From Bryoerythrophyllum caledonicum (Eukaryota; Streptophyta; Bryopsida; Pottiales; Pottiaceae), in contig OZ020519.1 in NCBI GenBank assembly GCA_963971425.1, positions 16,012,028 through 16,076,027 of the forward strand: DNA of 64,000 nt, written 5' to 3'. The notes under the pieces are model-generated. The model saw only the letters and a list, made by a program, of their open reading frames with translations, ran no database searches and was not told the origin of the DNA. This document shows positions 10,319 to 43,477 of this stretch, piece by piece. How positions within the stretch are numbered: the first letter of the stretch is position 1; every line of letters begins with the position of its first letter. The translations under genes and the position numbers were made by a program.

Positions 10319-11985
10319 CAGTGGTCAGCAGAAGTGTTCGGACAGGACGCTTCCACTTCCAATATGAGCTAGTTTTCTTACGTAACTCACATTCAAGTTG
10401 TAAAAATTTAAACATACAATCACATAGTTACAAAAAACATGTAACATAACATTCATAATAAAAAATGTCAATCAAGAAATCAATCAAAAATAAAACACAT
10501 GATGTGGGTGTCCAATTCTTTATGCAAAAAGTGAAGTGGTTATCTATTTACATTGGAAACAAAGCCATGAGCTACAAAATCAAGCTAAAAACTTGAATGT
10601 AGAATCATGAGGACTACCTAAAAACTTGAATGTACAATCATAATGACTACCATCGTGTATAGCCACCTTTTGCTTGATAAACATCTGCAGCTCTCTCAGG
10701 CATAGACATGATCAATTTCCTCACGGTATCAATCTCAATGCTATACCAAATTTCTTGCAATTTCTCCCACAAATCCTTCTTGTTAGTGGGTTTCTTCTTT
10801 GACATTCTCATACGACGATCTACTTCATTCCAAAGGTGTTCTATAGGATTCAAGTCAGGAGATTGAGCCGGATGCCAAATTAGTTGAAACTTCTGTGCTA
10901 ACAACCAATCTGTAACATACTTAGAAGTATGTTTGGGATCGTTGTCGTGCTGAAAAATAACATTCTCCTCTCCTAAATCATACATGTGTATAGTATTCAT
11001 GAGCTCCATCTCCAAAATTTCACGATACACAAACTTATCCATGTTTCCTTCTATAAGACGAAGGTTGCCAATTCCCTCCCAAGTCATACATCCCCAAACC
11101 ATAATGTTTCCACCTCCAAATTTGATAGTAGGTTGCACATGCTGATCTAAAAGATGCTCTCCTCTCTTCCTCCAACAATACTGCCTCCCATCTGAGCCAA
11201 ACAAATTGAATTTTGACTCATCTGAAAAAACCACATAACTCCAGTCCATCCAACTTGCATGCCTACACTTCTTTGCCCATGCATATCGACGTGCTTTGTG
11301 TTTCTTTGACAAGAATGGCTTCTTAGTTTTCACTCGTGCTCTCAATCCTTGCCTCTGAAGACATCTTCTAATTGTATCATCACTCAAATCCAATCCTTGA
11401 GATCGCATTTCTCTACCCACTGCTGTAGCTGTACCATTAGATGGTGCATTCAACAACCTTACAACCTCACGATCACCACGTTCATCAAGAATTCGAGGTC
11501 TCCCTTGTGAAGGAGCATCTCTCAAATGACCTCTCATTGTAAACCTCCGCACAATAGCATGGCAAGTGCTTCGAGAGATGCCTAGAACCGCTGAAATTTC
11601 GGAGTACGAATTCCCTCTCTCATGCATCTGAAGAACTAACTTACGTTCAGCAAAAGTCCTTCTAGGAGCCATAGCTAATCAAGAGCAATCTTATTCAATC
11701 ACAATGTGTCTTGAAATGCAAGAGGTCTCCATAAATACATGTCGATTCTCAAGATTTTTCAGATGCACAACTTGTGTGCATAATGAATTGGACACCCATG
11801 ATTGACACATCATGAACTGCAGCCCATGCAAGTGGCTCAATGTGAATGATGGTACTCTTTCTAGTTTACAAGTGGCTCTTTAGTTATAATTAGCTGAAAA
11901 AATCAGCACCTACCTACCAAACTCGACAAGTGTTACTATTAAATTGAGATTGTAATTACTGTCCGAACACTTCTGCTGACCACTG
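10319..11985 (-). mobile_element. Tc1-type transposon, apparently whole
   Basis: The element is 1,667 bp with 27-bp perfect terminal inverted repeats starting CAGTGGTCAGCAGAAGTG and a TA duplicated on each side. It lies in the TA of GACATTGTATGTCAA, and that uninterrupted sequence survives in related repeats at about 17,240 and 56,660, so the insertion is confirmed by an empty site. It encodes one uninterrupted transposase on the minus strand. Perfect ends and an open frame point to recent transposition. Confidence 0.95.
10647..11672 (-). CDS. Tc1-family DD34E transposase, 341 aa
   Basis: Cuts and pastes its own element at TA sites by DDE chemistry. Residues about 1-120 form the paired helix-turn-helix DNA-binding region (SYSEISAVLGISRSTCHAIV, then GRPRILDERGDREVV and TIRRCLQRQGLRAR). 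The catalytic triad is visible: D in VFSDESKFNLFG, D in FQHDNDPKHTS and E in SPDLNPIEHLW, with 34 residues between the last two, the Tc1 spacing. The GGGNIMVWGC block is also present. Length is normal for the family. Start is the ATG at 11,672, the first Met before the DNA-binding domain, about 300 bp inside the right end. There is no intron and no disabling change. Plant mariner-like elements are usually DD39D, so a whole DD34E gene here is unexpected. Confidence 0.95.
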   Translation of the reverse strand: MAPRRTFAERKLVLQMHERGNSYSEISAVLGISRSTCHAIVRRFTMRGHLRDAPSQGRPRILDERGDREVVRLLNAPSNGTATAVGREMRSQGLDLSDDTIRRCLQRQGLRARVKTKKPFLSKKHKARRYAWAKKCRHASWMDWSYVVFSDESKFNLFGSDGRQYCWRKRGEHLLDQHVQPTIKFGGGNIMVWGCMTWEGIGNLRLIEGNMDKFVYREILEMELMNTIHMYDLGEENVIFQHDNDPKHTSKYVTDWLLAQKFQLIWHPAQSPDLNPIEHLWNEVDRRMRMSKKKPTNKKDLWEKLQEIWYSIEIDTVRKLIMSMPERAADVYQAKGGYTRW

Positions 11986-17961: not shown

Positions 17962-18863
17962 GTTTCACTAATTGTGAATATACTGACATTTAGTGTGCAG
18001 ACTATTGCACGGCCTTCTTACTACAACTACCACAATGCGCTCCAAAACAAATTTGAGTTCGTCACGAGTCACAATATGCCATCACGTGCAGCTCGCTTGT
18101 CAAGGCAATCGCATTCTTCATCATCATCATCGGCAATGCCTTCTTGGTGCACACTTGCACAACATTAACCCCTAAGGTACCGTGACAGTTTTACACCAAA
18201 AACACTTCAAAATTGTTGGATTCTAGTGCAATGAATAATGAAGGAAACAAAAACTTTAACCGTAGGGTCTCAATAAAGGCTTATTAAGTAATACATGTAC
18301 AAAATTTCAGAGACTTTGACCGCACGGATTGCAAGATTACAATGTTTCCAGTCAAGCAAATGGTTCATTTTCTTCCCTGTGTTTAGTGGATCAGCAGACT
18401 TTGACTACACTTGGTGTCAAAAAATTTGCACTACTCAAGGTCTAAATCCGTTACCATCTTGTTAAGCATGATGTTTTCTCCATACCCACCAAATTTTAGA
18501 GGTAGAAGAGGGGTGTAGCATATTCAAAACAAGTGTGCAAGGAGTGGAGGCTCGAAATTTGTTATTTCACACTTTCATTTTTTTTGAACTTAATATGTTT
18601 TCGATTGATAATCCGAATGGTTAATAAGAAGGTTTACATTACATATTGATATGGAAAAAATAAAAAGTGAAAAATATAAAGATACCTAGGTTTTATGTGG
18701 AAAAGAAGAAGTTTGTTTGGTACCTTGCCCGACAATGAGTGACAATGTGTGAAAATGTTTGACTTGGGTTGGTATGCTATTTTTTACTAAAGACAAAAAC
18801 TTTTTTTGACAATATTAAGGGAAATAATATTACTTGCAAGTACTAAAAATCTCACATTCAATA

Positions 18864-18947
18864 CAGGATTGCTAGGGCGTGAGCTATGAGCCATGAGCAA
18901 TGAGCGGTGAGCGGTGAGCGGTGAGCTATGAGCAGTGATAGTCACAC
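18864..18947 (+). repeat. left terminal inverted repeat of the giant transposon
   Basis: Starts CAGGATTGCTAGGGCGTGAG and continues as about nine tandem heptamers (CTATGAG, CCATGAG, CAATGAG, CGGTGAG and the like). Such clustered short repeats at the ends could be transposase-binding sites. Confidence 0.8.
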
Positions 18948-20025
18948 AAAAATACCCTATTTTTTTTTTTGTATGATCGGAGAACCGTGGAAAAATAGCA
19001 GTATGAAAGTCTATATCCGTGGAAAATTTGTACAACCTATATATGATGTAATGCCTATATCCGTGTAAATATGCTTCTAATTTCATTGTGTTAGTATCTA
19101 TTCTCATTTTAGTCTCACATTGGTCCCCGTATTTTGACAACTATTTTTAGTACTATCAATTATAAGGTGATGTGATATATGATTTTACCATTTCATCCTT
19201 ATATTTTTTAATATACTTGTTACTTATTTTTTCTATAATTATGGCCTTGCCTTTTATAATATAAATCAATTTGACAAAAAATTTAATTATACATTATTGT
19301 TCATTCTTTCCAAAAAAATTTACGTTCATGAAATTATCTATTTCTCTCAAACCATTATCATATTTTAAAACACAATAATTGGTATAAATTTCTCCTGCTT
19401 TGACTTACGTCTATATAAAGTGTAGTATTCCCAGAGTGTATGAAATTTGATACTAATAGAATGCTCTATAGAGTTCACAAACTAACCATGTAACTTATTT
19501 TTTATTAGAAATTATGATCTTTGTTATTTATCTTTCACAAGCTATGCTAATATCTATTGAAAATATAAAGTATAGAAAATAAAATGGATACTATAATGAA
19601 TACACGTTATAAGTTTGAAGTTGAGAAGACAATGAAAGCATGAAACTGAGTACTAAAAATGAAAGGAATACTGCAATGTAAAAGACACGTACTAAGTGAA
19701 CAAAGAAAATTGCGAAATGAAGAAGTACATAACCATAGCAAAATTATAAAGTAGAATTAAAACTATCATCACTATCCTCGCTAGCCTCAATCGCTTCAAT
19801 GTCTACAAACTGAATAATACGAGGGTCATAACGACGAGTCTCAGACGATGGACTAGGAGATGGTAAAGTAGCTAATAATTGAGCTAAATCTTCTATATGC
19901 GAAGGAAGTAGAAACGGTTTAGGAGGTGATTCAGCGTCCGCCATCAATCTACAATGAATCAAACATTAATGTCAATGCTCAACTAAAAAATATTTAAGGA
20001 ATGCAAGAAAATAATAATTCACAAC
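18948..20025. other. left subterminal region of the giant transposon
   Basis: AT-rich and mostly non-coding. A 67-residue acidic minus-strand ORF from 19,944 to 19,744 (MADAESPPKPFLLPSHIEDL at its start) follows a TTCATTGTAG acceptor. It could be an alternative last exon of the ParB-methyltransferase gene, but joining it at the nearby GTAAGT gives an immediate stop, so its status is open. Confidence 0.4.
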
Positions 20026-23000
20026 TTACTTACTCAAGCGGTTTCGTTTTGGAACATGACGAACAGGAATGTCATCCTCTTTCAAGTCAATATCCGCTTG
20101 CAAAGACACAACAGTCTCTTCCAATGGTGGCGCGTCTCGAAGTGGTGCAAGGATGGCCTCAAAAATAGCAGGATCCGCCTCAAAAGCAACCAAATGGCGA
20201 TTTGAGCGGCGGCAAGCGTGAATCGAGGCACCTAAATTTAAGAGAAAAATATTAATGAAACACTACATCATCTATTTTTTCAATATAAAACGTATCAAAA
20301 TTACCTGTAGAAGCATAGGCATCAAGAATGACACCACCTGGCTTGGTTAGAGCTTGAATAAGAAGTTGCAATAAAATTGGATCTTTCTCCCGGCCTCCTC
20401 TCCAAGGAACAATTCCATTCATGATCTGTGATGCTTCTGATACAAAGTTGAAGAGAACATCATCGTCGCCAAGGTTGGTAGAGCCATCCAACAGTGGTTG
20501 GTCTTGTTGAAAGGAGAATTGAGAACTTGATGGTTGCGAATTATGAATAAGGAGGAGGATGCGAAAACGTCGAGTCTATCCAAAAACAATTGTGTTGTTA
20601 AAATAAATAAGTGAGAAAATAACATTATAGAAAGAGTAGAGATAGGGAAACACACCGAGATTGATTGGTTTGTTGAAGATGTCAATTGGAGCTCATTGAT
20701 GCCCCACCAGTCTTTGATGATTTTAAAGTCATAAGTCTTTGCATATGTACGAACGTCTGCTCGGATGGTCATTGACTCAGGCATAAAGATAAGTAAAGAT
20801 GCATGAAATTGCAAGTAGTAATGAGCGAATTCGAAGATGGCTTCCAATTCAGACACATTATAAGTATTCCACTGAGGAATGTCATTCGTCAGAGATGAAA
20901 TCTTCGCTACCGGTAAACCTTCGGGAATGTCAATAATGATAAGATCAAATCCATCATGAGGGCACGATGCAGAACGCACATGAGTTCCTCGACCTTTTCC
21001 AACCTACGAATATAAAATTCTTCAAACATTAATTAACCACTCCAAAAAATTATCACTCTCAAGAAAGCAATAAACCACTTCAAAAAATAAAAACAAATTA
21101 AATATTAGTTATAGCAATGTAAATGATTATGAATAAAGCGTCATACCGTTGAAACGAAATCATGCATCTTCTTCATAAGAGGATGATCGCTCCCAAATTC
21201 CATCAATGTGAAAATTGAAGTATTTTCAACAAGAATTTTTGTTGAAGAGACAATGGAGGAAGAAGCAATACACGTAGCATTGGCATTTTTCATGGCCTGA
21301 ATATTAGTCTGATAAACCTCGATGGCATTGGCGGCCTGAGAAGGAACTGATGAATTTACTAAATTCAAAACATTAGGTGGGGCAATCACTCCACTGCCAT
21401 CCACAGGAATAATAGTTGCAGTTGAAGTCTGAGTTACCTTTGAAGCTTCAGATCCCTTGGATGCCTTGGATGACTTTGTTGCCTTTAAAGCCTTTGTTGT
21501 TATTGTTGTTGAATCTGTTGCCTTTGTTGTCGTTGCTGCCTTTCTCTTCCCTTTCTGAGCTGTTACTAGTGCCGCAGCAACTTCGGGGGCATCCAAAACA
21601 TCATCTACATCATCATCAAGTACAATAGAAGAGACCTTGGCTTTTAATTGTGCCTTCTCTTCTTCCTCCTCGGCAGGACAAAACGCAGGTGGACAATCCA
21701 AGTACCATGCTCCATTCTGTAAATGAGCAAGACTCCACTTTTGAGTCTGCATTGGAGTGTAGATACAAAGCGGAGACGCCTTGTCTATCCAAGATGATAA
21801 AAACGGTGGTAAAGATTGTGGAAGTACGGCTTCCTTGGCCACCAACTCCCTACGTAGATATCTATACAAAAAAATTCAATAAAATATTAGTTCTTATGAA
21901 ATGAGAAAATGTGAAATCAAATTTTCCTATTGATAATATTACCTGAATAAGACACGCTTGATAGCTAGAATACCAGTCGCCATATCAACGACTTTAGAAG
22001 ATTTAGTGAACGGGGTCTCAGCTTTAAAGAAAGGAATAAAAGCCTTCTCCCAAACTGCAATCCTCCAACGCTCCACGTATTCACCAATCCTCAAAATTCC
22101 AGGTGATGCCTCCCAATTAATGGGACCAAGGTCGGGCGACATATCCTCAAACTCATGCACCACAGCATTCTCCAACTAATAATACACAATAACATATATT
22201 ATATATAGGCAATTTGATATCATGTTGTTATTTGAGATTTAAGAAAAACCAAAAATACTGTATTCAAGACAATATGAAAGTGGAACTAACCTGAGCCCAA
22301 AATGTGGCACGAATTAGCCATAGATCGAAGACTGTTTCTTTAACAGCACCAGTTGGAAACCGTAGAGACTCTCGAGTCATCTTGGATGAATTCCACCATT
22401 TGAGCCAACGTCCTTTGAACTCAGCATCAACCATTGCAGTAGCTACCTTTTGTAATTTTTCGAGGGTCATATCTGGCTTCGGATTATTGTTCCAATGTCT
22501 TGTGATCTAGTAAAATAATATATATCACCAAAATGAGATAACATATAAAAAAAAAACAAATTAAAAACTATGGATCGAATAGAATTCAATACCTCGTACA
22601 GGAAATCTGATCCATTTTTAGGATCTGCCACTGCCAATAACTTTTCAAACTCATGGCTACGAATACTTTTGATAAATGCCTTCGCAGCCTTGTCCATTGC
22701 TTCCCAAATCCCTTTAGCAGTTTGCTCCTCAATAGGCGTATTTGCCTTATATTCTTGGCAAGCCTCATCAGATGCAGAAGCAATCTCTCGCTGCGAAGGA
22801 AATGATTAATAAAAAAATTAGCTAGAAGATGTAATATGAATCAGTATATAATAGTGCAAATGTACTCACCCGATAGAGGAAAGATATAAACACATTGATG
22901 GTCAATGTGTACCAAGTGCGAGAATTCTTTTTGAATTTCTCACAAGTCTTGAAATCCGCGTCCGGAATAAGAGTCTTGAAATCAGCTAGAGGTAAAACTC

Positions 23001-23843
23001 CGAAATGTTGGATTCGGTGCACTAAATTTGTTTTAACATGATCAAGCTCCGTCGACCTGCAAATAAAGGTATATAACTAGTTAATTATATTTTCAAATCA
23101 TGCAATGAAAGTATAAGAAACAATACACATCAATAAGTTGAATAAGAGTTCACTCACCTATTCACATCATTCATAGCATCGAGAAGGGGCCCCAAAGCCC
23201 CTCGAGCATCAATACAAATGCATTCAACAGGCCGATAAAAATTGGATTCATAACGGTCTCCTGAATAATTCTTCTCAATATATCTCCACCACGCTGTAAA
23301 CCGATGATTGCCCTCCCAAATAAAAAGCATTTTACCATGAAGGCATGAAAGTTCAGGATCGTTTTTTACTTCTTCATCAAATCGCTCACTGACATCTTTC
23401 CAATGGCCACTCCAAGTAGATGAAACCGTTGGAGATGCTTCATGAGTTTGGCCAATCTCATTATAAATGGATACATATAGAGGACGGTCTCCAGAACGGT
23501 AGCCATTCACAAATTCAGCCTCAAGTTTTTTCACATCTTGGTCAAGAATTGGTCTTACCAGTGGAAGAGGAATTAGCCGACATAATGGGATCAACACCCT
23601 AGCGTGGGACGGATGAACATGAAGGCCTGAAAGGAAGCCAAACGAATCAGGCTTTTGTTCTTTTCTGACCTGAATCTCAACGGCATCCAAGTCTACCACC
23701 TCCTCGGGAAATGTTGCCTCCGCAATGTTTGTAACATCTTCCATATCCTCATGAATCATATTAGCCTCCTCCGTCGCACTTGATGGCTCTATATTATCCT
23801 CCATGTCCTCCGATGGAATTGGACTTAAACTTGGTTGCCTCTC
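20026..23843 (-). CDS. ParB-like domain fused to N6/N4 DNA methyltransferase-like domain
   Basis: Nine exons (23,843-23,158; 23,056-22,870; 22,790-22,593; 22,506-22,291; 22,175-21,943; 21,861-21,147; 21,003-20,656; 20,575-20,305; 20,231-20,026) all have GT-AG borders and join in frame to 1,019 residues. The start may be ATG 23,870, an internal Met or an unseen exon. The first 240 residues hold a ParB/sulfiredoxin-like fold: RLIPLPLVRPILDQDVKKLE, then FIWEGNHRFTAWW, then RPVECICIDARG. A Thr/Ala/Lys-rich linker follows. The last 270 residues carry DLIIIDIPEG (motif IV position) and then KPGGVILDAYASTGASIHAC plus HLVAFEADPAIF (motif I region), the beta-class order of bacterial N6/N4 methyltransferases. 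Motif IV is atypical (DIPEG, not DPPY), so activity is uncertain. It probably modifies or marks DNA for the transposon. Confidence 0.75.
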
Positions 23844-23870
23844 CTGATAGTACACAAAATTAAAAATCAT

Positions 23871-24602
23871 TAGAATATTAGACTCGACCTCAACACTTAA
23901 AATGAGTATGAAAGTCCATCATGCAGATATTAGTTGCCCTCTCTAGACCTCGGTAGCACGGTCGAGAGTGATGAATTGAGGTGAAAAGGGAGTCTGGATA
24001 GTGCGGTTGGCACAGTAAGAGAGAGAGAGTCGAAGTAAGAGAGAGTGAAAGTGCAAGTTGGAGGAAGGTTCCTCGGGAAGAACGTGGTGAACATAAACTG
24101 ACAGAGGCCGACCAACTATCTTTCCACGCCCTAAACAATTGTCTCGGCACCGAGACAGTCAGACACAGGCTCTTATCGCCTGTGCTCACATCGCACATGC
24201 TCTTATTCCCTAATTTCCCTGGTCACTTTACCACACGTCCATAACAAGTATCTCGGCACCGAGACGGTTCGCATGAGCTCATTATTCACTGTGCTCTTTA
24301 ACTATGTATGGACTTTATGGATCGTTGCTTTGGGTGTACAACTGTCATTTGCTCCCCCACCAGCCTGTGTCATCGTAACCCAGGCCAACCCGAACAACGC
24401 ACACCAATCCGAGGGACTCATGTCCCACCACGTGGTGCCCCCCATCATAATCCTGCGACACTCAACCGTCCCCACCATCACCCCCCAAAATACACTTAAT
24501 CTCCCGGTCAGCTGCTTCGAGGAGCAGGATATAAACCACACTTTCAGGTGTGTGCAAAGTGATGCAACATCGGAGTAGCATCAAAAACAGATGCTGGCGA
24601 GC
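23871..24602. other. upstream region of the ParB-methyltransferase gene
   Basis: It contains purine/pyrimidine-rich tracts near 23,990-24,060 (GAGAGAG) and the first two dyads TCTCGGCACCGAGA (24,141 and 24,251). The ORFs here overlap on both strands with no protein character. It is the likely promoter region of the minus-strand gene, though no TATA box stands out. Confidence 0.4.
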
Positions 24603-24712
24603 CGAGTCGGGAGTTTGTAAACGTATTAGCTCTAGAATTACTACGGTTATCCGAGTAGCTAGGTACCATCAAAGAAACTATAACTGATTTGATGAGCCAT
24701 TCGCAGTGATCA
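24603..24712 (-). rRNA. captured fragment of 18S rRNA gene (about 110 bp)
   Basis: The minus strand reads CTGCGAATGGCTCATCAAAT, CAGTTATAGTTT, GATGGTACC, CTACTCGGATAACCGTAGTA and ATTCTAGAGCTAATACG in order, which is the conserved 5' region of nuclear 18S rRNA. The GATGGTACC form is common in green algae and seedless plants. Only this piece is present, so it is a fragment carried by the transposon, not a working rRNA gene. Confidence 0.9.
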
Positions 24713-26674
24713 TAAACTGGCGACTCATCCAAGACCGTGGGAGAGGCCGGGCAGCTCTAAACAACTATCTCGGCACCGAGACAGTACGCCCTTGCTCTTT
24801 ATCGCCTGCGTGAATTCAACGCCTGGTCACTTTATCACACGCCCTAAACAACTACTCGGCACCGAGACAGTGACCCTGTTCTCTTTATCCACTGAGCTCT
24901 TGATCCATTGTGCTCTTTATCAATATATGCGACTGGCAATACCCCGACTCGGTTCACGCCCTTGTATAATCTTCATGTATAATCCTCAATAATCCTCACG
25001 TAATCGACCTGCGTGAAATCGACCTGCGTGAAAGACGCTTGAACCTGGATCTTGAACCAGATCTGATGACCTCGGAACGCTTCCGCCTTGAACCAGATCT
25101 ATTGACCCCGGAAAGCTGACGACCTCACGAGCCTCGGCACCTCGATTTCAAGATACTCGGCACCGAGTCACTTCTAACTAGACGCACATCATCATGCGCA
25201 CCGATACATGAACGCTCTTCATCAGCCCGGTACCTGAACGGTTAGATCAGGTAGTCTCCCTTGTGCGGATTATTCTCTCGCCCGAGCGGCGAAGTAGCTA
25301 GAACCTGGACCTGAACTGCGCCTTGAACCTGATCTACAAAAAGGCGCAAGATCCAGGACCTGAACTGCGCCTTGAATGTGATCTGCGAAATGGCGCTAGA
25401 ACCTGGACTTCGTGAAGACACTGTAGATCACGCGTGATTTGATCGTGTACTCTAGTGTTCAGGCGCGTGAACATTGTTGATTCGGCGTGCGAACCCTGTT
25501 CATCATGCGCGCGGCCACTATTCATCATTGGCGCGAACTTTGTTCATCGTGAACAATCGAGGTCAGGCGAGAGAAGATTCTTGAGGCTCGGGAACACTGT
25601 AGATCATGCGCCTCGTTAACATGCGCCGCAGCTCTGAAGTTCACGCAAATTGGCACCTCGCTCACAAGTGTCTCGGCACCGAGATACTTCTATTGTGCGA
25701 CTCACACAACCTATCTAGAGTATCGATGACCTATTTTCAATGACCTGACGGCAACTGGTGCGGCTCAACCTGGGCAACCTGTCAGCATCCCAACCTGGTG
25801 CGTCTCCTCGGATACTGCTGCACCAAGAAAGATGTACGAGTTCTGGTGTACAAGCTCTAATGGTGTACGAGTTCTGCCGCGCTAAGAATGGTCCCTGGTG
25901 TACGAGTTCTTCAGCGAACTATAGTCCTCATGATCCAGTACATTGATCGCAGCACAAGAAACACGTTAAGATACCTACCCCTCTTGTTAAAACCTCCACT
26001 CACAAGAAAGAAGCCACAAACTCTAAAACGATCGCAAGAACATCAGATTTCTGTTCATCACCAAGAAAATTCCGAACGAGACAGTACAGGACCTTCCTGA
26101 TAATCCTAGTCACGATTGCAGAAGTCCGCAACTTCCATTCATGATTAACAGTCCCGGCTCTGCCCTCGAGCAACGTGTGTGGTTCACGAAGATCATGATC
26201 TTGATGAGCTTGAACGAGAATATGACTCATTGGACGAGACCTGTTAGGTTCGACGACAATTGCTATCATTCTCTGCAATATTTAAGAGATACTCTGGACG
26301 GCAGTGCATAATTGATTTTTATTGTGGAAGGCAATCACCATGGCGGTTTAATTCAAATATGAGTATTATACCGCCGTATAATACCGTGAACTCTCCGCTT
26401 TATACTAAACAAATATCACTGTATACTACGGTACTTGTAACGTCGGTTTACGTACAGCTGAATTTTCCAAATCTATTTTGCCCCAAGGCTTGTTGTAAGT
26501 TACGAGAGTTGAATATGTGATACCAATGTCTTACCCTGGTGACATCCGTGCAATGCCTAGGTTATTTCCCACGTGGACGTAACATACTCTAAGGAAACAT
26601 GTATAATTTGTCATGGTGTTCATCAAACAGACCATTGCACATGGAATTCACAATAATTTCCACAAAAAATTGGG
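24713..26674. other. GC-rich transposon filler with dyads
   Basis: Noticeably richer in G+C than its surroundings. It has repeated phrases (GAACCTGGA, GTGTACGAGTTCT at 25,840-25,910, CTTGAACCAGATCT) and dyads at about 24,768, 24,855, 25,155 and 25,671. No gene is recognised. The base composition and the adjacent rDNA fragment suggest acquired DNA. Confidence 0.45.
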
Positions 26675-27432
26675 GTCTCGGCACCGAGACACCTCATATT
26701 TAGCTCGAGAAATTTGAAATCATTAAAAGTAACAACAAATTACTAGGACCTACCACAAAATATTTCATAATTATAGAGTGATCTCGGCACCGAGATACCT
26801 CATATTGAGCTCAAAGAATTTGAAATTATCAAAAGTGACAACAAATGACTAGGACCTACCACAAAATCTTTCATTTTAATAAAGTGATCTCGGCACCGAG
26901 ATACCTCATATTGAGCTCAAAGAATTTGAAATTATCAAAAGTGACAACAAATGACTAGGACCTACCACAAAATCTTTCATTATTATAAAGTGATCTCGGC
27001 ACCGAGATACCTCATATTGAGCTCAAAGAATTTGAAAATATCAAAAGTGACAACAAATGACTAGGACCTACCACAAAATCTTTCATTATAATAAAGTGAT
27101 CTCGGCACCGAGATACCTCATATTGAGCTCAAAGAATTTGAAAATATCAAAAGTGACAACAAATGACTAGGACCTACCACAAAATCTTTCATTATTATAA
27201 AGTGATCTCGGCACCGAGATACCTCATATTGAGCTCAAAGAATTTGAAAATATCAAAAGTGACAACAAATGACTAGGACCTACCACAAAATATATCATAA
27301 TTATAAAGTGATCTCGGCACCGAGATACCTCATACTGAGCTCAAAGAATATGAAATCATCAAGATTGACAACAAACGTATTGGACCTACCACAAAATAAT
27401 TCATAGAATTCAGTTGATCTCGGCACCGAGAC
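26675..27432. repeat. 106-bp tandem array, each unit with a TCTCGGCACCGAGA dyad
   Basis: Dyads begin at 26,675, 26,781, 26,887, 26,993, 27,099, 27,205, 27,311 and 27,417, exactly 106 bp apart each time. Units share ACCTCATATTGAGCTCAAAG, GTGACAACAAATGACTAGGA and CCTACCACAAAAT. The dyad has 6-bp arms around CA. Middle units are nearly identical while the edges are diverged, typical of array homogenisation. 106 bp is close to ten DNA helical turns, so all dyads would face the same side. Confidence 0.95.
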
Positions 27433-27802
27433 ACCTTGTAATTTTAGGAACGTGCCTAAAATCTTTATTGTCTTTCCAAGTCACCCATGGTTAGTTAGGG
27501 GTCAAAATTTAATGTTCCTAAAATGTTTTCATGAGAAAGAGTGTCTCGGCACCGAGACCCCCAATGTCAACATCTTAAAATTCCAGAGATTGCAAACTAA
27601 GACGTTGAGTTCAAACATCAAATCTATTAACATCCAAGGAGAAAACAACATGAGCCGCGAGTATAAGAAGACAATCGAGAACAATTGACTGAGGGACCAT
27701 TACCAACTTATCCGAACATCCAAAATAGGCAACAACGACGCAAATTTTGAAGACAGTCTTTGATTACAATTTCTTCCAAAATGATTGTTTCGGCACCGAG
27801 AC
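27433..27802. other. flank of the dyad array
   Basis: Two further dyads at about 27,543 and 27,788, out of register with the array. No gene. Confidence 0.5.
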
Positions 27803-28339
27803 CTATTGAATCCAAGCAAATGTGGTCATAAACAAATCTTGAACCAGCATGGTTAGGTCATGAAAAGGCACCTCAAATCCTTCAGCAACCCTGTCTTCAG
27901 CCATTGCCATTGACGCCGCTCCACTAATTGAGCTCAGCTACAACATATCAAAATGGAATCGGTGCGCATGTCACTCCTAGAATTCCATCAAATTCAAAAG
28001 ATCAAACTAATCAATTCAATATAGTAAAAGAGAAGTTTTTGAAAAATATCTTACACTGATGCAACGCCCGAGATTGTTTGCAGAGGGATTGTCTTTTTCT
28101 TCTTCAAAGTGAGACACCTCTACGTCATTTCGAGCATTGTCATCAAGTACCTGATCTCCAAAATTGAGCGTTTTAACAATTGCAGTGCATGAAGAACTCG
28201 TCCTGGATCTAGTTTTTCTGGATTGCATCCGGGCCCTATTCAAAGTTTTTCTATCTGAAAAATATATCCGAGGCCTCTTTTTCTTCTTCTTCACCTTAGA
28301 CCTAATAGGCGACCCTATAGACTTCTCTTCTTCTAGCAT
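27803..28339 (-). CDS. small basic protein gene of the giant transposon
   Basis: Two exons join in frame: 28,339-28,055 (donor AGT|GTAAGA) and 27,937-27,803 (acceptor TGTTGTAG, stop TAG), about 139 residues. The N-terminal half is strongly basic (RSKVKKKKKRPRIYFSDRKT), a likely nuclear localisation signal; the middle is acidic; the end is hydrophobic (FEVPFHDLTMLVQDLF). Met at 28,339 directly follows an acceptor-like TTTTACAG, so another 5' exon is possible. No family recognised. Lying between the dyad array and the transposase, it may be a DNA-binding helper of the element. Confidence 0.5.
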
Positions 28340-29853
28340 CTGTAAAATCTTGTGGACATGCTACGATCAACAACACTCTGAATAAATCGATCCATTTGCA
28401 GCAGTTTGCAAGAACAAAATATACAACACTAGAAGGAAGGCCTTCGTCAATGTGTTCAGATATCACGACATATAGTTAGCGTTCAATTCTAATTTAGACA
28501 ATGAATTTGAAACTATAGAGTTCTATTATATTTCTATTTCATTTTAAGTAAGATTAGATTAGTTTCCAATCTATTTTCTTCTATCTAGCTGTGATGGTGC
28601 CTAATTTATTGCTCTGCAATGACGTCATGTAGCTTATAGTACAGTCTTCATGAAACTTCTATTTCATTAATAGTACAATCTTCACCACAATAAGCGTCAT
28701 CTATTTTCTTCTCCTCGGTGAGGGTGCCTGATTTATTGCTCTGTAATGGCGTCCTGCAGTTTATAGTACAGTCTTCACCAAACTTCTATTTTATTTACAG
28801 TACAATCTTCACCAAAACAAGCGACATCTATTTTCTTCTACTCAGTGACGGTGCCCTATTTATTGCTCTGTAATGGCGTCCTGCAGTTTATAGTACAATC
28901 TTCACCAAACTTCTATTATATTTGAGTTATTTGTAAAGGGAACCGGTCTTTTGTCCTCCTTTTTTCATGCAAAAGAGAATCTAACCTGTATTTGAGTGTA
29001 GCCGCAAAGTAATCCTGTGAAAAAAATTCAGGGTTTGAGGGTTTTGAGGAGGTGTTATTTATGGCACAAGTGGCACAAATCTCCCAAAAAAAACAAGAAC
29101 AATCATGAACGTTATGACACTCTGGCATGTATCCTACATCCTAGAGTTGTGCATGATGTGAAGGGTCAATGATTGCTTAAAATAAAAGCCAGGCACAAAC
29201 TCGAGTTTGGGAATTCTAAGGCTCAAAAACAAGTCTATCCAGTGTTATATTCTAGGTCTACAGTGAAACCCTGCCAGTGGACTCGGCGACCCTGGCTTTT
29301 CCATTTTACAGGTTAGAAACTGAGGATTTGGGGTACTTTGCGGATAACTCTATTTACAGTACAATCTTCACCAAAACAAGCGACATCTATTTTCTTCTAC
29401 TCAGTGACGGTGCCCTATTTATTGCTCTGCAATGGCGTCCTACAGTTTATAGTACAGTCTTCACCAAAGTTCTATTTCATTAATAGTATAATCTTTGGCA
29501 AAACAAGCGTCCTCTATTTTCTTCATCTTAGTGACAGTGCCTTATTTTTTGCTCTGCAATGGCGTCATGTAGCTTATAGTACAGTCTTCACCAAAGTTGC
29601 CAAACTTCTATTTTACAATTACTTCCGTCGTCTAAACTTCATGAAATATCCGTCAGAAGACACTTTAGCAGTCAAGCTACATTGGTTAAATTCTTGATTC
29701 CTACTTCCACCAAGTTCGATAACCTAGTAACCCCCCTACTTTCAAATTTGTCCTCATTTCATAATTTACAGTATGATTTGGTGCCATATCGCTCTTCTCC
29801 TCTTGTAGGTTCATCTGTTTTCTTCTTACCTCTACTCTTAGCGCAACGTGAGA
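28340..29853. repeat. about 128-bp dispersed and tandem repeats upstream of the transposase
   Basis: Five copies of a unit (near 28,607, 28,725, 28,853, 29,410 and 29,540) contain TTTATTGCTCTGYAATGGCG, CAGTTTATAGTACAGTCTTC and ACCAAAACAAGCG. They lie between the divergent small gene and the transposase gene, so they probably include promoter sequence. ORFs crossing them are shadows. Confidence 0.65.
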
Positions 29854-32800
29854 ATGGCAACATTGAGAGCAGAGGGGCATCCTGTGCCAATCCGAATACC
29901 ATTAGGATCTGATGGATTTGCTAGAGTCACTTCTCCACTTCTAGCTATTCGTTTTGGCTTCACTCTAGATACTATCCATGTAGAGGAGGAGGTCTTAGAT
30001 GCTGCTGGGATTATATGCTACACCATGCTTCAACTCAGTTCAATTGTTGATGAGGGCAAGGCCTGGCTTTTGAGGGAGGGATCATACAAAGTGATAGGTC
30101 TGAGTGAATTGCAAATGCAAGCTTCTACCGAGATACTCACACCAGGAAAATCCAGCACTTCTACTGTGAAAGTTGAGAAGCAATCGCCAACAAAGAGTAG
30201 ACCGGATATTCATCATGCTTGGGGAGGGCATACTACACCTCCCACAATTCATTTGGATGACAGCGACGACGACTGCCCTGTGGTGGACATCACTGCGTGT
30301 ACTCCTCCAACCTTCAGCAAAGCGGCGCCCTCCCCATCAAGTCCTCTGGTGCGAGCGGGTACACCATCTTCCATGTCCCGTCCGCCCTTGCACCCTTCAA
30401 CACAAGGCAATTCTTCTTCCATGTCCCGGCCACCTCTGCATCCATTCTCCCAAGAACAAACAAGCGTTGTTGCATGTTTAAAGAGACTGGCCTCTAGGCC
30501 GGGATCTAAGAACGTATTGAAGAAAATTGACTATGCTGTCGTACCTCACAAAAAAGTTGAGTTCTTGCCCTCTACTTTTAATGGTGATGTCATATTTGAG
30601 TTGCCTCCCGCTTCGTTAAATGCTAGTTCTTCCAATGCTCGAAACATGCAAGGTATGGACAAACGGTACGACGGTCATTGCTGGTGTCTAACAAAGACAT
30701 CGAATATTTCAAATGACATGGGTCTTACCTTTCGTAGATCTTCATGTGGTGGACACTTGCGTTGTGAGAATCCAGAGTGCGATTATTTGAAGAGGCTCAA
30801 TCGTGAAGATCCGTACAATGAGAAAGAGTGGGAGGGGACCACAGCGATGCCTTTTGTGCCCGGAAGACCAATACCAAAGACCTCGTCGTTGGTTTGTAAG
30901 GTATGTAAGACTTCACCTAGTGTACTTGCTATGTGTCAGGCCGTCATTTACTATGTGCAAGGACCTCCTGAGATGACCCGTGCTTGTGTGCACATGGGCA
31001 TTCATGATCATCCTGTAGCTTTTGGAATTTGCCGTGAGTCAGAGGCAAAGATTAATAGTCTATTGGGCGAGCATGTGGAGCGCAATCCTACAGGAACAAA
31101 TTCAGCAATTGCCATGTCAGCAAGCAAGGAATTTCTAGTAGAGTATCTTCTTCGACCCCAAGAGTCAGAGATGACCATGACTATGGAAGACATGAAGGAC
31201 GTGATGGAGAAGTATACTAATTTGGCATCTCCAAATGTCAAAAATACCATTTCATCCTTCAAGCAAGTTGGACGTACAAGCGCAATGGACGGTATCCGCA
31301 CAATGAGAGGTTGTACGACTTGGCCATTTGTCCAGCGCAACATGTTTCCAGGTCAAGGAGGCGACAAGGACAAAGTTTTTGTCTTTAAGATGTGCGAGAT
31401 TGGCCCTGGTTCAGGAGTCGATCTAGTTTCACGCATGCAGCCTGGTGGAGACCTTCAAGACACATGGATCATGTTTGATCATGTAAAGCGGGTTAAGAAT
31501 TGGACCACCATGGCTTGCCATGTGTACGACTCTCGGTACTGTAGAGTTATGACTGTTGCAGTTTGCGACATGCAATCTGAAGACTCAGAAGCCCAATGCA
31601 TTATGTGGAGGAGCATCAATGAAGTTATGGGGAGGCACGGGGTCCAGCACGTCAACTTCAAAGGTTTCATGGCGGATAGCGCAGGAGCAAACTGGAATGC
31701 TGTGCGGACGGTCTATGGTTCAGGTAATCCCCAAGAGGTTATGGTAGATCGAGAACGCACATGTCTACTTCATTGGACAACATCCATGAACCGCCACACG
31801 GACAAGTATATCAAGAGCGAGTTCCAAGACCAGCACCGTCTTCTGTGCAAGCAATATAAGGATGCCAAGAGTTTGGCAGACTCTGAGATTCGTTACCTTG
31901 CCATTAGAGCTTGGTGGCAATCTTGTGGTGCCCAAAATGATGAGGCCCTAAGACAACTTGACCAGTGGCTTGCCTTTTGGCATTACCGCTATCGCCAATG
32001 GGGGGCATCTATGGAATTGGTATGAGTTGTATCTTATTTGATTATAATTTCATTTCAATATACGGTCCAAACAACCATGTAAGTGACGTTGTGATTTGTG
32101 TTACAGAATCTTACAGATGAAGAGATGGCCGAAATGCCATCCTGTAATTTGGCGGAGACTGTCCATAATCGATGGCTTCAACAATCAGGGAATAGAGGAA
32201 ATGACCTATACGATGCGACGGTGGACGACTTTGTTCGTGCGTTTATGCAATGCACGAACTATTATCACTTTTTAAAAGGAGGGCGATCAGGGACCGGCCC
32301 TTCCAAGCATGAGTTGCGAATGAGGCTTGCCCAAAGGACCGGTAAACACGAGAAGGTGATTGAAGCCATGGAGAGCATCCCGGAGGCCAAGGAGTGGTGC
32401 ACACGCACTCCTCACTTTGAAGGAGAAGAGGTGTTTGGCTCCAGCAAACGAAAGCTTGATGAACCATTTGGTTCAGACCTTGATAGTCATCGCTCTGATA
32501 AAATAAATTACTCCCGTCCGAAGGCCTCTACAAGGTCCAGGAAGGGACGTCAAGACAATTCTTCTGCAGCGACAGCGTTGCCTCCCACCTCTCCATCTTC
32601 ATCTTCGGGTGATGTGAAGCTTGTGTCCCCACCGTTGTCTCCATCCAAAACACCTACGGGAGTGAAGCATGTTACAAGTGTTCAAGAATCTAAGTGTGAC
32701 ATACATAAATGGCATATTGCAAGGCTCCCAAAGACTTCCGGTAAGTGTTGTCATGCTAAACAGGCCAGGACGGGTATGACGTGCACCGAGAAGATTGTGC

Positions 32801-33549
32801 GTTTGGGGAAAAGCACTCTTGCTCCTACATACACCGAGCTCCTCCATGTTCGAAGACTCTTGAAGGACCAAGTTACCGAGTTCTTCCACTGCCCGGATGA
32901 CATTGAAAGGTGCGTAAAGGGAACTAAGCGAAAGTGGGTGAATCACCGTCCGCTAGTTCCAGATGTATGGCCTGTGACGAAGGGCACCAACCTTACCAAG
33001 GCTGAGATTCTCAGACTAGAAGAGGCAGGATTTCAACTAGAAGAGCGACGGGAAGTCTCACCGAGGCGGCTTTTTGGAGATGCTGTGAATCCTACTACGC
33101 ACGCAGCATCCGTGCCTACACCTGCAGATGCCGACTCTTATCCAACATTGCGTGAAGGCCGCCGTATCCGTCGTCAGGCAAAGATTTCCGTGAAGCAAAA
33201 AAATCGATGGGCATCAGCGGACAACCTCAATGTCCGCATCAACTCCATCTCAATGCTTCCCTACTCCGCCCTCGGATGCATCATTGTACTACAGTCAAAG
33301 AAGGGGCAGAAGACGAGTGAATATCGCCTTACTATTGGCCCTCTCCCAAATTGCACTTGCGGCGACTTCAAAGACATGGTGGTTCAATCCAAGAAGAGAG
33401 GTGCTTGGTACCATTGCAAGCATCTCTACTATATTTTTCGAGTCGTATGCAAGCTCAATTGCGAGGACGATGCTTTTGTCCATGCTGCTACCTTAAGCTT
33501 CAACGAGATCAAGAAAATACTGGAGAGTGGTGTCTTGAAGCATCTATGA
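29854..33549 (+). CDS. Mutator-like transposase with SWIM zinc finger, about 1,202 aa
   Basis: Two exons, 29,854-32,019 and 32,107-33,549, joined in frame across an 87-bp GT-AG intron; the ATG at 29,854 is the first in frame. A Ser/Pro-rich linker (residues about 110-240) precedes a Cys/His cluster (GHCWC at 275, SCGGHLRCENPECDY, CKVCKTSP) resembling the WRKY/GCM1-type fingers of MULE transposases. The DDE-like core has D in IMFDHVKR (about 542) and D in GFMADSAGANWNAV (about 608), followed by CLLHW. NLAETVHNRW (about 736) begins exon 2. A SWIM finger, CTC...CKH, lies at 1,138-1,159. Its role should be excision and insertion of the 15.3 kb element. The core is divergent from classical MuDR and the third acidic residue is not assigned. 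Confidence 0.8.
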
Positions 33550-34061
33550 TGTGTAGCTTCGAATGTAGGGACATTGCTATATCTCTCTATAGTATTTATA
33601 GCCCAACTTATATGGATAGTTGCTAAATGTTGTTAGTATATGGATAATGTACCTCTTATTTGTTATAAAATAGAAAGATATTTTTATTCTTATACTGTAG
33701 TTCATTTCGTTGTCATATCCGCATTTACTTCACTTGTGTCTCCATCACTTATACAATACTTCACCAACTTAATTATCTACCATCGATTTATTTAGTGTAT
33801 ACATAAAATAAGAGTTTCGTATGTATAATAATCCTCTTTAGGTCCCAAACTCGTAGTGCCTACAATCTCTCCAATACACCTTCAACTTTGCGAAATAGGA
33901 AGATCCAATACTACTTGAATTTGAATGCTATTGGACCTGAAATATTGTAGTCAATTCTAATTGCACGGTTATAGGCACTAAAAATTTACTAAAAATATTT
34001 TAATCCGAAATTTTTAGTACATGCATAACATTATTTTTAGAAAACAAAACCTATTTTTGGT
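33550..34061. other. right subterminal region of the giant transposon
   Basis: Transposase 3' UTR and AT-rich sequence with no gene. Confidence 0.5.
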
Positions 34062-34141
34062 AAATCAGAGCTCACCGCTCATGAAATCTCCGCTCATGGC
34101 TCATGGCTCATGGCTCATGGCTCACACCCTAGCGTCGTTGA
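34062..34141 (-). repeat. right terminal inverted repeat of the giant transposon
   Basis: Reverse complemented, it reads GCTAGGGTGTGAGCCATGAG and continues as heptamers, four of them identical, matching the left end. The outermost 7 bp differ from the left end. Confidence 0.8.
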
Positions 34142-34699
34142 CATTCAATAGAGTGTCCTATCAAAGGTTTTTTGAGGTGCCCAAGGTGCCTGCCCTCCCC
34201 ATTTAAAATTCAAAACCCTATAACTTTTTCATCAAATGTCCAATTTAGGAAAAAATTGTTTTCCCACTAAGGTCTTGGTAATGTCTTTCTATAGTAAAAA
34301 TTTCAAAGAAGAATGTTGGAAATTGACACCATAGGAACCTGACCAAACTCTCAAATTGCCATTTCGTGAGACTTGGTCCTTTAGGGGTTTACTCCCTCAA
34401 ATCCCTATCTCACTCACAAACAATTGTCCAACATTCCTTGCCTTGGAGTAAAAGAGCGATGGCCATGGTTGCCACAACATCCTCTCTCCCTATCTCCCTC
34501 ACTTACACGGCCTTCACGCCGCACCCATGTCCTCAACATCTACTTCGCAACAAATTCTAGGTGAAAATCCTCTTCTTTGATTGGTTTGGTCGCGCAATGA
34601 TTGCATTGGTTGTGTTGAGGCACGGAGGTGATAGGTAAATAGTGTCTATTCTTAGGAGAAAGAAGTGTTTCCAAACAACTACTCTATGTCCTATTAAAA

Positions 34700-38448: not shown

Positions 38449-39721
38449 CCAAGGACTACTGCCGAAGACATCACCAATATGATATCACATGGATGGACAA
38501 GGTTAGCACCCCTCTCCTCCATACCCTCCTATTTTCTTCGAACACCTACATATACATTGAAACTAGTATGTTCCCCCCTAGTATGTTCTCCCCCCTAGTA
38601 TGTTCTCTCTTCATCACTACAATATACTAGTTAGTACTCTAATGCTTACTACATTAGTACCCCCCACATCACTACAATTAGTTGTAAACCTCCAAAGTCT
38701 CCATTCTTACCCTGCATTGCCTGTACTAATGATATATCACCTCACTACTATAGCTACAATATACTTTAGCCTCACCTTAGTCTTTATCCCCCCTCCACTA
38801 ATCACCTCCTACTCTAGACATACTCCCTACTTTTGCTACAACATACTTACAACTAAATGCATGACTTGGAGACCACATGGCAGATGCTTGTATTGGTTCT
38901 GGGGTTTCATCCCACTTATCTATAAACAATGTCATTGCATATACCATTACGGTATGAATATCTCTTGGGAAAACACATACACGATACACACTCTCAACAC
39001 TCATACACCATTACCACGTTCCTACATCACAAACACACCCCATACACCCACACACAACACACTAGCCCTACCACCACACACACCTCCAACCAATCAAAAC
39101 ACTTACCTCCTTGAATGTCACCTCTCACACACATCCCCCAAAACCACAAACAAACAAACCATCACCAATACAAACTCACCTCAAAAAATCAAAATAATTG
39201 CATACACAATCATACACATACATAAACACATCAAAACAAACACACAAATCCCCACATACTTGCACACACATATAAACACAAAAAATAAAAACACAAATAC
39301 ACATACACACACATACATAAAAACACACCCACACAACCAAATACACACACAAAAGCCCAAAAATGCACATAATATATACACACATATACATATACACACA
39401 CTCGCACCTCCACACTTGCGAACAAAAACCCACTTACAAAATACCACAAAAATACACACAAAAACACACCAAAAAAACTATAAACAAGCCCACACAAACT
39501 CAAAAAGAGATGCACATCCAAAAATAATAACATTTAGAACCAGGGGAAAAAACAAGACCACAACAAATCCCACAAACAAAAACACAGACACGTACACAAA
39601 TAAAAACACAAAAAACAAAAACAAAAAAACAAAAAAACACCAACAATATACACATAAACCAATAAACCAAAAACAACACAACAAACCTTCACACTATAAA
39701 ATCCTATTACTATTAAGTGGA
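38449..39721 (+). other. A/C-rich leader of LINE ORF2
   Basis: Open in the frame of the 2A motif from 38,600. From about 39,000 the plus strand is almost free of G and encodes a Thr/Asn/His/Lys/Pro-rich low-complexity chain with no domain. Its role may be only to be translated and released at the 2A site. Confidence 0.55.
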
Positions 39722-39745
39722 GATATAGAAACCAATCCGGGACCC
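39722..39745 (+). other. 2A ribosome-skipping motif in LINE ORF2
   Basis: The codons read LLLLSGDIETNPGP, which fits the 2A consensus D(V/I)ExNPG|P including the Leu-rich run before it. In characterised 2A sequences the ribosome fails to join Gly to Pro (here 39,742/39,743) and releases the upstream chain while continuing downstream. It is known at the N-terminus of ORF2 in some LINEs such as trypanosome L1Tc and sea urchin elements. Here it would separate the leader from the endonuclease-reverse transcriptase. Confidence 0.85.
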
Positions 39746-40279
39746 ATGCCCAATATACTAAAAAGACATCCCACAACACATAGAAAAAATGCCAAAATTT
39801 ACTTCATACCAAATACCATAAAACTACAACCGGAATATAAACACATTGCAAAGACATTTTTACCACTTCTCAAACCCACACACATATTACATCAACTACA
39901 CATCACAACACACCCAAATATTGCCCAATATATACAACAACAAAATACACACCCACCAACACATATTTTCTATGCCCTAGTAATCACCACCCACCCAAAC
40001 TTAGACGAATGTAACAGTCTTCTAAATTTACAAAACCCGAATATAATTACATGGACTAACACATTGTTACGAACCCTATCAAACTTACAAAACCCACCCG
40101 AAAGACACATCCACACCACACACCCTTATACAAAATTCCTCGAAGATAACCTAAATATCATAAACCACAGAAATTCAATACACGAAGAATATACGACTTT
40201 TTACATAGTCAAACCGTACCCCCCTCAAACAACACAGTAAAACAAAAATTCCCTTACCTCCCTAATAACCAAATTAACG

Positions 40280-41423: not shown

Positions 41424-43477
41424 ATGACATACAGATCTTCGCAACAAGGCGGTTATCTACCCCGCAAACTGTCCAAAACATGGAAACAACACATGACCAC
41501 ATACCACATAATACGGAAAACTATTAGAATTGTGAAAAATAACCCACAATGGCATAATCATCCCATATGTAACGAATTACTAACCTTGCACCACACCCAA
41601 ATCCCTGCCCCACCCCTCTCAAACTTACCCCATGATACATGGATCAAAAACATTGCACAAATCGCGAAAAATGCCAATATACAAGTTCGGAAAGTAACTA
41701 CAAAATACACCAAAGATAACATTAGAAAAGCCATCTCAAAATATAGACAACTATACGAAACTAGCCCCAAAAAAATAAATAGAAAAGTTTTTTAAAAACT
41801 AGAATCCCCACCACTAGACTGTATCACTGACTAATATAATAACATATTAACTAGCCCGGAAGACATAGCAAACGAAATATTCAACCAACAGAAAAAAAAA
41901 ATAATAGACCCACAGTACCAACATGCAACTACCAACCACAACATCTTATCGAATGCACATGCGCAGTACGCCAATATCCATGGCATGACCTAGATGGATT
42001 TACCTTACACAAACGAGGTGAGCCTGAAACCCCGTTACACACATACTTCAATAGAGCCATATATGACACATGTCTTTGCAACCTAGGAAACAACAAAGCC
42101 CCAGGGCCAGACCGTATTCTGAATTCTATACTCAAAAACATGCCCCCAAGATTTAATAAACTACTATTTCTATTTTTCTCCCATTGCTATAAACAAAAAC
42201 AAATACCAGCCTCATGGAAAACAAGTGCAACAATCTTACTACACAAAAAAGGAGATCCTTCAATTTTACCAAACCACAGACCAATAGAATTAGCCAACAC
42301 AATATATAAACTCTACACCAGTACACTTACTTCAATATTATCATCATACGGTGAAAAATTTAAAATCCTACACGATAGTCAAGAGGGATTTAGAGCAGAG
42401 AGAAATACTAGACAAATACAAACTTTAATAGCGGCACTAGAAGATGCACGATTCACAAACCAAGACATATATATTTTATATATTGACTTCAAAAACGCCT
42501 TTGGCTCTATAGACCACGCCCGACTACTAGCAATAATGACTGACATTGGGTACCCAAAAGATGCAACTGCACTACTTGGAAATATCTACTCCCAATCATC
42601 TACTTACTACACCGGTGAACACTTTGGTAAAACTAAGCCCATCCCCATTCATAGAGGAATCATACAAGGAGACACCCTCAGTCCATACCTATTCATTATA
42701 TTTTTAGAACCACTACTTCGTTGGCTAGAACGAGGCAATAATGGATATACTTTTGGTACATCACAAATCACCATAAACTCCGCCGCCTACGCCGATGAGC
42801 TTGCCACTATAACTAACAAAATAAGCGCATTACAAACACAAATTGATAAAATCGACAAATATTGTAAATGGACCGGTATGGACGTAGGCGTCTCAAAATG
42901 CGCGGCTATAGGGTGTCCAAACAAATCCAAAATGAATCCAACTACATTTAAAGCCCTAATGCAAGCTTCTAACATCAACTACCGTGGCCAACCAATCCCC
43001 ATACTACACCAAAATGAAGCATATGCTTACCTAGGCACAAATCTTGTTCCCTCACTTAAATGGAAAATACAAATACACACCACAACCACAAAACTCATTA
43101 AACAATGCAAAGAATTAACAACATGTCCGGCCACTATGAAACAAAAAATTAAAATGGTTGACACCGTAACACGCCCAGGTATAGCATACAACTTCTACGT
43201 AGTACCATACTCTATGCCAACCATTAAAAAACTTGACCAAAAGATTATAGCCATACAAAAAATCATATGTGGTATGCCAAAATGCATGGCAAAGGCAATA
43301 ACCCAACTCCCACATAACCTATTCGGACTTGAAGCCTTCTCCCTCAGAAATGCCTATCTACGATGTATAGGGGAACAATTACAAAATGCTCTAAATGACA
43401 AAGGTAGACTCGGAAAAAACAGATTGCATAAGGTCACCAATAACTCGTATATTCTACCTATTAAAACATGTAGCTAA
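41424..43477 (+). pseudogene. LINE reverse transcriptase domain, YADE variant
   Basis: The connector (41,424-41,795) is followed by the RT in another frame (42,140-43,477), running into it from about 42,080 (NKAPGPDRI). Blocks: SWKTSATILLHKKGDPSILP, NHRPIELANTIYKLYTSTL, SQEGFRAERNTRQ, YILYIDFKNAFGSIDH (block A Asp), GIIQGDTLSPYLF (block B) and AAYADELATI (block C). Block C has YADE where YADD is expected, a GAC to GAG-type change that would abolish or weaken polymerisation. The copy is also frameshifted before and after the domain. Confidence 0.85.

Follow-up and report, generated by a model that had tools for sequence, protein, structure and literature searches.

Introduction

Can a plant transposon carry a DNA-modification gene of its own, and what would such a gene do for it? 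The question is raised by a 15.3-kb element in the moss Bryoerythrophyllum caledonicum, which lies in the window analyzed here, a 64,000-nt stretch of DNA (C7:16012028-16076027) within a 437-Mb genome of 894 contigs. A sequence-only reading had described the element as a Mutator-like transposon with a transposase gene, a ParB-methyltransferase gene and a third small gene, and had proposed that it marks its own DNA. We report that the element is a real transposon, real at both ends, with a selected fusion gene (ParB-like and methyltransferase-like) and a conserved palindrome array. With a probability of about 0.45, we regard it as a Mutator-like DNA transposon, recently mobile, whose accessory module consists of the fusion protein, a small basic protein and the palindrome array, and in which the fusion protein would bind the array and mark or assist the element.

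Ends and insertion site

The transposon spans 18864-34140 (15,277 bp). Its left terminal inverted repeat (18864..18940, plus strand) begins with CAGGATTGCTAGGGCGTGAGC and continues in TGAGCNN heptamers, and its right terminal inverted repeat occupies 34065..34140 on the minus strand; the inverted arms at 18871-18917 and 34087-34133, composed of the same heptamers, are 47 nt long and 87% complementary. The target-site duplication, ACATTCAATA, flanks the element on the left (18854..18863) and on the right (34141..34150). The sequence-only reading was correct that both ends are real and that a duplication is present, which it gave as 9 bp; the duplication is one base longer (10 bp), and the element therefore ends at 34140, not at 34141. 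A query for empty sites, built from 150 bp on either side of the element around a single target copy, ran uninterrupted at 40 of 40 other places scored (from 3,762 first-look candidates), with 95-96% identity across 296-298 of 300 bases. This proves that the element inserted into a dispersed repeat, in agreement with the interrupted host repeat described before.

The fusion gene

Inside these ends, an in-frame gene of the methyltransferase type is present as had been claimed: it has 10 exons on the minus strand (19744..23870), is derived from prokaryote-type DNA methyltransferases and occurs in many copies. Its exons are 23158-23870, 22870-23056, 22593-22790, 22291-22506, 21943-22175, 21147-21861, 20656-21003, 20305-20575, 20033-20231 and 19744-19948. 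Start codons and exon borders of the element's genes are predicted gene models, and translation would give 1,094 aa from the outer ATG (23870) or 1,072 aa from the inner one (23804). The gene is open throughout, and all introns are GT-AG. Comparison with copy X (73% identical), whose fusion gene has no stops, gave over 1,004 codons a nonsynonymous divergence (dN) of 0.169, a synonymous divergence (dS) of 0.900 and a dN/dS of 0.19; the fusion gene is under purifying selection.

The protein matches PF01555 (N6_N4_Mtase) with 27.1 bits when whole and 29.4 bits as a C-terminal piece (cut-off 26.7), the match covering only profile positions 170-219 of 221 (the last 50). A four-sequence profile matched DpnA (E value 1.9e-4) and CcrM (E value 9.6e-4), both by the C-terminal half. 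A genome search with PF01555 (C-terminal profile positions only) gave eight matches in 150 scored candidates, none at listed fusion-gene loci, and the full-length protein found no match at E 0.001 among 5.8 billion proteins, a result that tells little since its length filter excludes short methyltransferases.

In N6_N4 methyltransferases, motif IV reads [DNS]PP[YFW], and the usual catalytic form is DPPY. The methyltransferase-like region (20033..21003, minus strand) has DIPEG instead, in the window and in most copies (pattern D[IVL][PL]EG), with DVLEG in L040, a decayed distant paralogue. Deviating forms are DIAEG in L035, HIPEG in AB and DIPKG in AE, L037 and W, so that the aromatic position is taken by glutamate in most copies and by lysine in three; no aromatic residue was found there in any copy or public relative whose motif IV was seen. 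Ten public relatives were matched and eight retrieved, and the five that cover this place all have D[IL]PEG. As the altered motif is common to most copies and to these five relatives, it is not a single-copy lesion. Motif I (DAYASTG) mostly keeps its D and one G while missing the FxGxG pattern, and the acidic residue of motif II (FEAD) is mostly kept. The D[IVL][PL]EG pattern in place of DPPY makes DNA modification doubtful and weakens the proposal that the element marks its own DNA. Judged by its motifs, the domain is more likely to be a part for S-adenosylmethionine (SAM) sensing, a scaffold or an enzyme of changed chemistry than an ordinary writer of N6-methyladenine (6mA) or N4-methylcytosine (4mC).

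A GNHR-type motif marks ParB proteins, and one was recognized by eye in the N-terminal region (23160..23645, minus strand); it is present in most copies covering that region, except in Y (ENNHQF). Pfam detected no ParB match in three of three members, hhalign of the region against E. coli YbdM gave a probability of 1% (E value 0.057), and PDB searches with the same region returned nothing credible. The name thus comes from the GNHR motif and a published algal analogue, with no profile support. Genome-wide, the ParB-like domain gave 1,702 first-look candidates; the best 150, when scored, included 115 rows at 37-49% identity, many of them in equal-score groups, as in recently multiplied lineages. 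Distinct relatives were also met by chance in L005, L040 and L049.

The palindrome array and the center of the element

The center, described earlier as shared and repeat-rich, holds a further feature not named in that reading: 16 copies of a palindrome with the core CTCGGCACCGAG (15 exact, one TTCGG...), all in one orientation (24143..27800, plus strand), eight of which lie within a 106-bp tandem repeat (26676-27436). Allowing two mismatches on both strands, the window has 34 matches versus 0.84 in shuffles, a count in which exact sites count twice and two sites are outside the element. Exact palindrome 14-mers number 412 in the genome versus 2 for the reversed control. Among the 100 sites listed, 91 are within 12 kb of gene markers (markers covering 1.3% of that DNA and including more distant ParB-like rows on C1/C2), and so are 14 of 14 clusters of at least three.

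The same palindrome is found in X, Z, AB, AC, AF and AE, in one orientation except for one AB near-site. Comparison of the window center with those of X, Z and AB by blastn gave no match longer than 60 bases among the matches listed; the palindrome is conserved though the centers of diverged copies do not align. The deletion derivative AE retains 10 sites (up to two mismatches), and four of four deletion-class left ends (C1; C2 to 24.13 Mb) have listed palindromes within 12 kb. The array is family-concentrated and conserved.

The small gene (27803..28339, minus strand; exons 28055-28339 and 27803-27937) is open and encodes 139 aa with a basic N-terminal part. It had been thought that three genes face out from the shared center, which is so for the transposase gene on the plus strand and the fusion gene on the minus strand; the small gene shares the strand of the fusion gene and therefore has no outward facing of its own. 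Upstream of the transposase gene, a 127-bp repeat forms two blocks (28569-28923 and 29358-29598).

Copies and deletion derivatives

Exact 10-bp duplications, all different in sequence, surround six copies (the window, AE, X, B, C and P). In D and M 9 of 10 bases agree, in E 7 of 7 visible bases and in Z 8 of 10, AB has an approximate pair only, and no clear pair was found at the flanks of W, Y and AC. A scan of AF for ends showed no heptamer clusters, and the right end of copy J was missed in the end search. A genome search with the fusion protein, in which 43 of 6,097 candidates were scored, gave 152 exon matches, and those listed group into at least about 32 loci. Exon 1 of the transposase is 100% and 99% identical in copies B and C, which argues for recent mobility.

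A 26-base stretch of the left end has 43 exact copies genome-wide and none for the reversed control. A fusion gene lies within 8 kb of 17 of these ends (one, AE, in part only), 21 have a small-gene match and no listed fusion gene (one of them also with a transposase), and 5 have neither. In 16 of the 21 fusion-less ends the small-gene match is 5.2-6.2 kb from the left end, and in AE it is at 5.7 kb. AE is 89-91% identical to the window at both ends, the fronts of its fusion and transposase genes are gone, and the transposase remainder has 10 stops. The ends without a fusion gene are probably internal deletions like AE, the sole one read in sequence. That ends and methyltransferase gene travel together is therefore true of the 17 ends, AE partly, and not of the other 26 (21 and 5), which have no listed gene.

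The transposase and the distribution of the module

DDE residues, a CxxH motif and a SWIM finger are motifs of Mutator-like element (MULE) transposases. The transposase gene (29854..33549, plus strand; exons 29854-32019 and 32107-33549) is open and encodes 1,202 aa, in which D (FDHVKR), D (MADSAGANW), CxxH (ERTCLLHW) and a C-terminal CxC...CxH were recognized by eye. Neither the window transposase nor any of 13 aligned members gave a significant Pfam family; closest to a transposase label came the zinc finger PF13842, matched by one member (E value 0.76). MULE target-site duplications are given as 8-11 bp in the passages available from PMC6446971, and the element has both a duplication of this length (10 bp) and long inverted ends (47 nt, 87%). 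The Mutator-like assignment is thus backed by duplication, ends and by-eye motifs and not by Pfam, and the same division applies to the SWIM-type label, which has the CxC...CxH pattern and no Pfam match.

We scored 62 transposase matches: 15 at 84-100% identity, 3 at 80-82%, 25 at 73-76% and 19 at 69-70%. When the best 150 of 1,702 ParB-like and 150 of 315 small-gene candidates were scored, a ParB-like gene was found within 25 kb of 13/15, 0/3, 0/25 and 0/19 of these transposases, respectively, and a small-gene match of 15/15, 2/3, 0/25 and 0/19; absence of the module from subfamilies is provisional because these best candidates only were scored. The groups at 73-76% (25 matches) and at 69-70% (19 matches) are multicopy, mostly open transposase subfamilies that appear to lack the accessory module. 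No palindrome is listed within 200 kb of the three 69-76% copies on the listed stretch (C1:38835025, C1:49277084 and C2:13054760). In the comparison of the window with X, transposase dN is 0.45, and the fusion-gene dS of 0.90 set against a saturated transposase dS is a hint of module exchange; the hint is weak because fusion-gene dS is the larger one in the pairs X-Z (0.20 versus 0.10) and X-AB (0.46 versus 0.32).

Relation to known systems

ParB-methyltransferase genes in algal transposons are already in print, and the element is partly known in kind: the available passages of PMC12477816 describe Sola1-1_Ec32, a 21.5-kb Ectocarpus transposon with such a gene, and cite similar green and red algal transposon genes (Iyer 2011, Petroll 2025). 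The two elements have a similar layout: in each, a protein of roughly 1,100 aa combines ParB-like with N4/N6-methyltransferase domains, and its gene lies on the other strand from the transposase gene within a giant DNA transposon. Sola1-1_Ec32 belongs to superfamily Sola-1, whereas the moss element has 10-bp duplications and ends of the Mutator-like type, and its motif IV is altered and its center carries a palindrome array. The claim that no plant MULE with a ParB-methyltransferase gene has been described agrees with the open-access titles, abstract openings and passages surveyed, which name none, and must be set beside the algal genes; the same literature yielded no description of such a palindrome array together with an altered active site.

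According to the passages seen of PMC5735166, VANC21 binds an array of a short motif in the non-coding DNA of the family to which it belongs, its expression leads to loss of methylation, and VANC motif arrays are non-coding, family-enriched and in one orientation. Like VANDAL elements, the moss element combines a transposase with accessory proteins and has family-specific, non-coding, one-orientation and partly tandem motif arrays. The domains and motif differ (DUF1985/DUF287 and YAGTATTAY there, ParB-like/methyltransferase-like here), and neither DUF was found by a Pfam scan of the whole fusion protein; VANC anti-silencing is demonstrated, whereas the counterpart in the fusion protein is our proposal. 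As far as the consulted parts of these papers go, a gene of DNA-modification descent is also present in fungal transposons (TET/JBP; PMC12730594) and in retrotransposons (DNMTs; PMC5890265), where the enzyme families and the elements are different ones.

Interpretation and rival explanations

By analogy with VANC21, the strongest candidate for the palindrome binder is the fusion protein. We propose that this protein, possibly together with the small protein, binds the palindromes carried by its family, and that binding might mark the element for anti-silencing or aid its transposition, as VANC does in VANDAL elements; the degenerate beta-class amino-methyltransferase domain could act in SAM sensing, as a scaffold or with changed chemistry. 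Several observations weigh against this reading. Two of 15 close transposases (C54:7418 and C14:426457) and all three at 80-82% lack a scored ParB-like gene nearby. Eight of 30 palindrome clusters have no nearby marker, the marker set itself reaches to more distant ParB-like rows, one AB near-site is reversed, copy Y has no palindrome and W has one near-site only. A replacement palindrome was sought in W and Y, with nothing in Y and an unrelated GTTGGA type in W, at four places outside the gene region. A bolder version, possible but tentative, would have a prokaryotic ParB-methyltransferase turned by a eukaryotic transposon lineage into a sequence-specific self-recognition factor with a parS-like array, convergent with VANC. 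Its active site would have been reshaped (Tyr to Glu) under selection, yielding a chromatin protein that senses SAM or an enzyme of new chemistry, and its module would perhaps have moved between transposase lineages.

Large MULEs capture genes, as in Pack-MULEs, and the element also carries a scrap of 18S rRNA, so the methyltransferase-like gene might be a host-captured passenger; purifying selection (dN/dS 0.19 between lineages, no stops in X) and exon matches in at least about 32 loci disfavor this, and we consider it very improbable. Whether the fusion protein could be an active amino-methyltransferase writing 6mA or 4mC on the element turns on its motifs. The PF01555 score above cut-off, the profile matches to DpnA and CcrM in their C-terminal halves, the mostly kept acidic residue of motif II and the prediction by the Ectocarpus authors (PMC12477816, passages available) that a similar protein makes 4mC or 6mA speak for activity, but D[IVL][PL]EG as the form shared by most copies and by the five of five relatives covering the motif, deviants equally devoid of the aromatic residue, and a motif I without FxGxG leave it doubtful.

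The palindromes might instead be sites for the transposase or for the small protein and have their function in transposition, with another role for the fusion gene: some 2 kb separate the end of the array from the transposase gene downstream, and the array adjoins the small gene and is kept in AE, whose transposase front is gone. Against this, the palindrome is unchanged in X despite a strongly different transposase (dN 0.45), the three 69-76% copies lack listed palindromes within 200 kb, and among the scored candidates neither a fusion gene nor a small gene lies near members of the 69-76% subfamilies, making this arrangement unlikely. Assignment to another or undescribed superfamily, which the missing Pfam match in 13 of 13 members (PF13842 at E 0.76 being the nearest) would favor, also seems improbable to us given the 10-bp duplication, the long inverted ends and the by-eye C-terminal CxC...CxH. 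Under the preferred reading of a Mutator-like transposon with a palindrome-binding accessory module, one element with open genes would unite algal ParB-methyltransferase accessory genes and VANDAL-style motif-array self-recognition, and the named candidate binding site makes the role of ParB-methyltransferase proteins directly testable.

Other features of the element and window

The 18S rRNA gene piece lies in the element at about 24604-24735 on the minus strand (Rfam RF01960, E value 2.7e-6, 30.2 bits, below the gathering score of 50), and window positions 24594-24666 are matched at 82% in copy W. Elsewhere in the window, an open 341-aa frame on the minus strand (10647-11672) looks by eye like a Tc1/mariner transposase. 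The open frame 38600-40240 holds LSGDIETNPGP, which we take to resemble a 2A self-cleaving peptide, and near it lies a frame that by eye is reverse-transcriptase-like (42140-43477).

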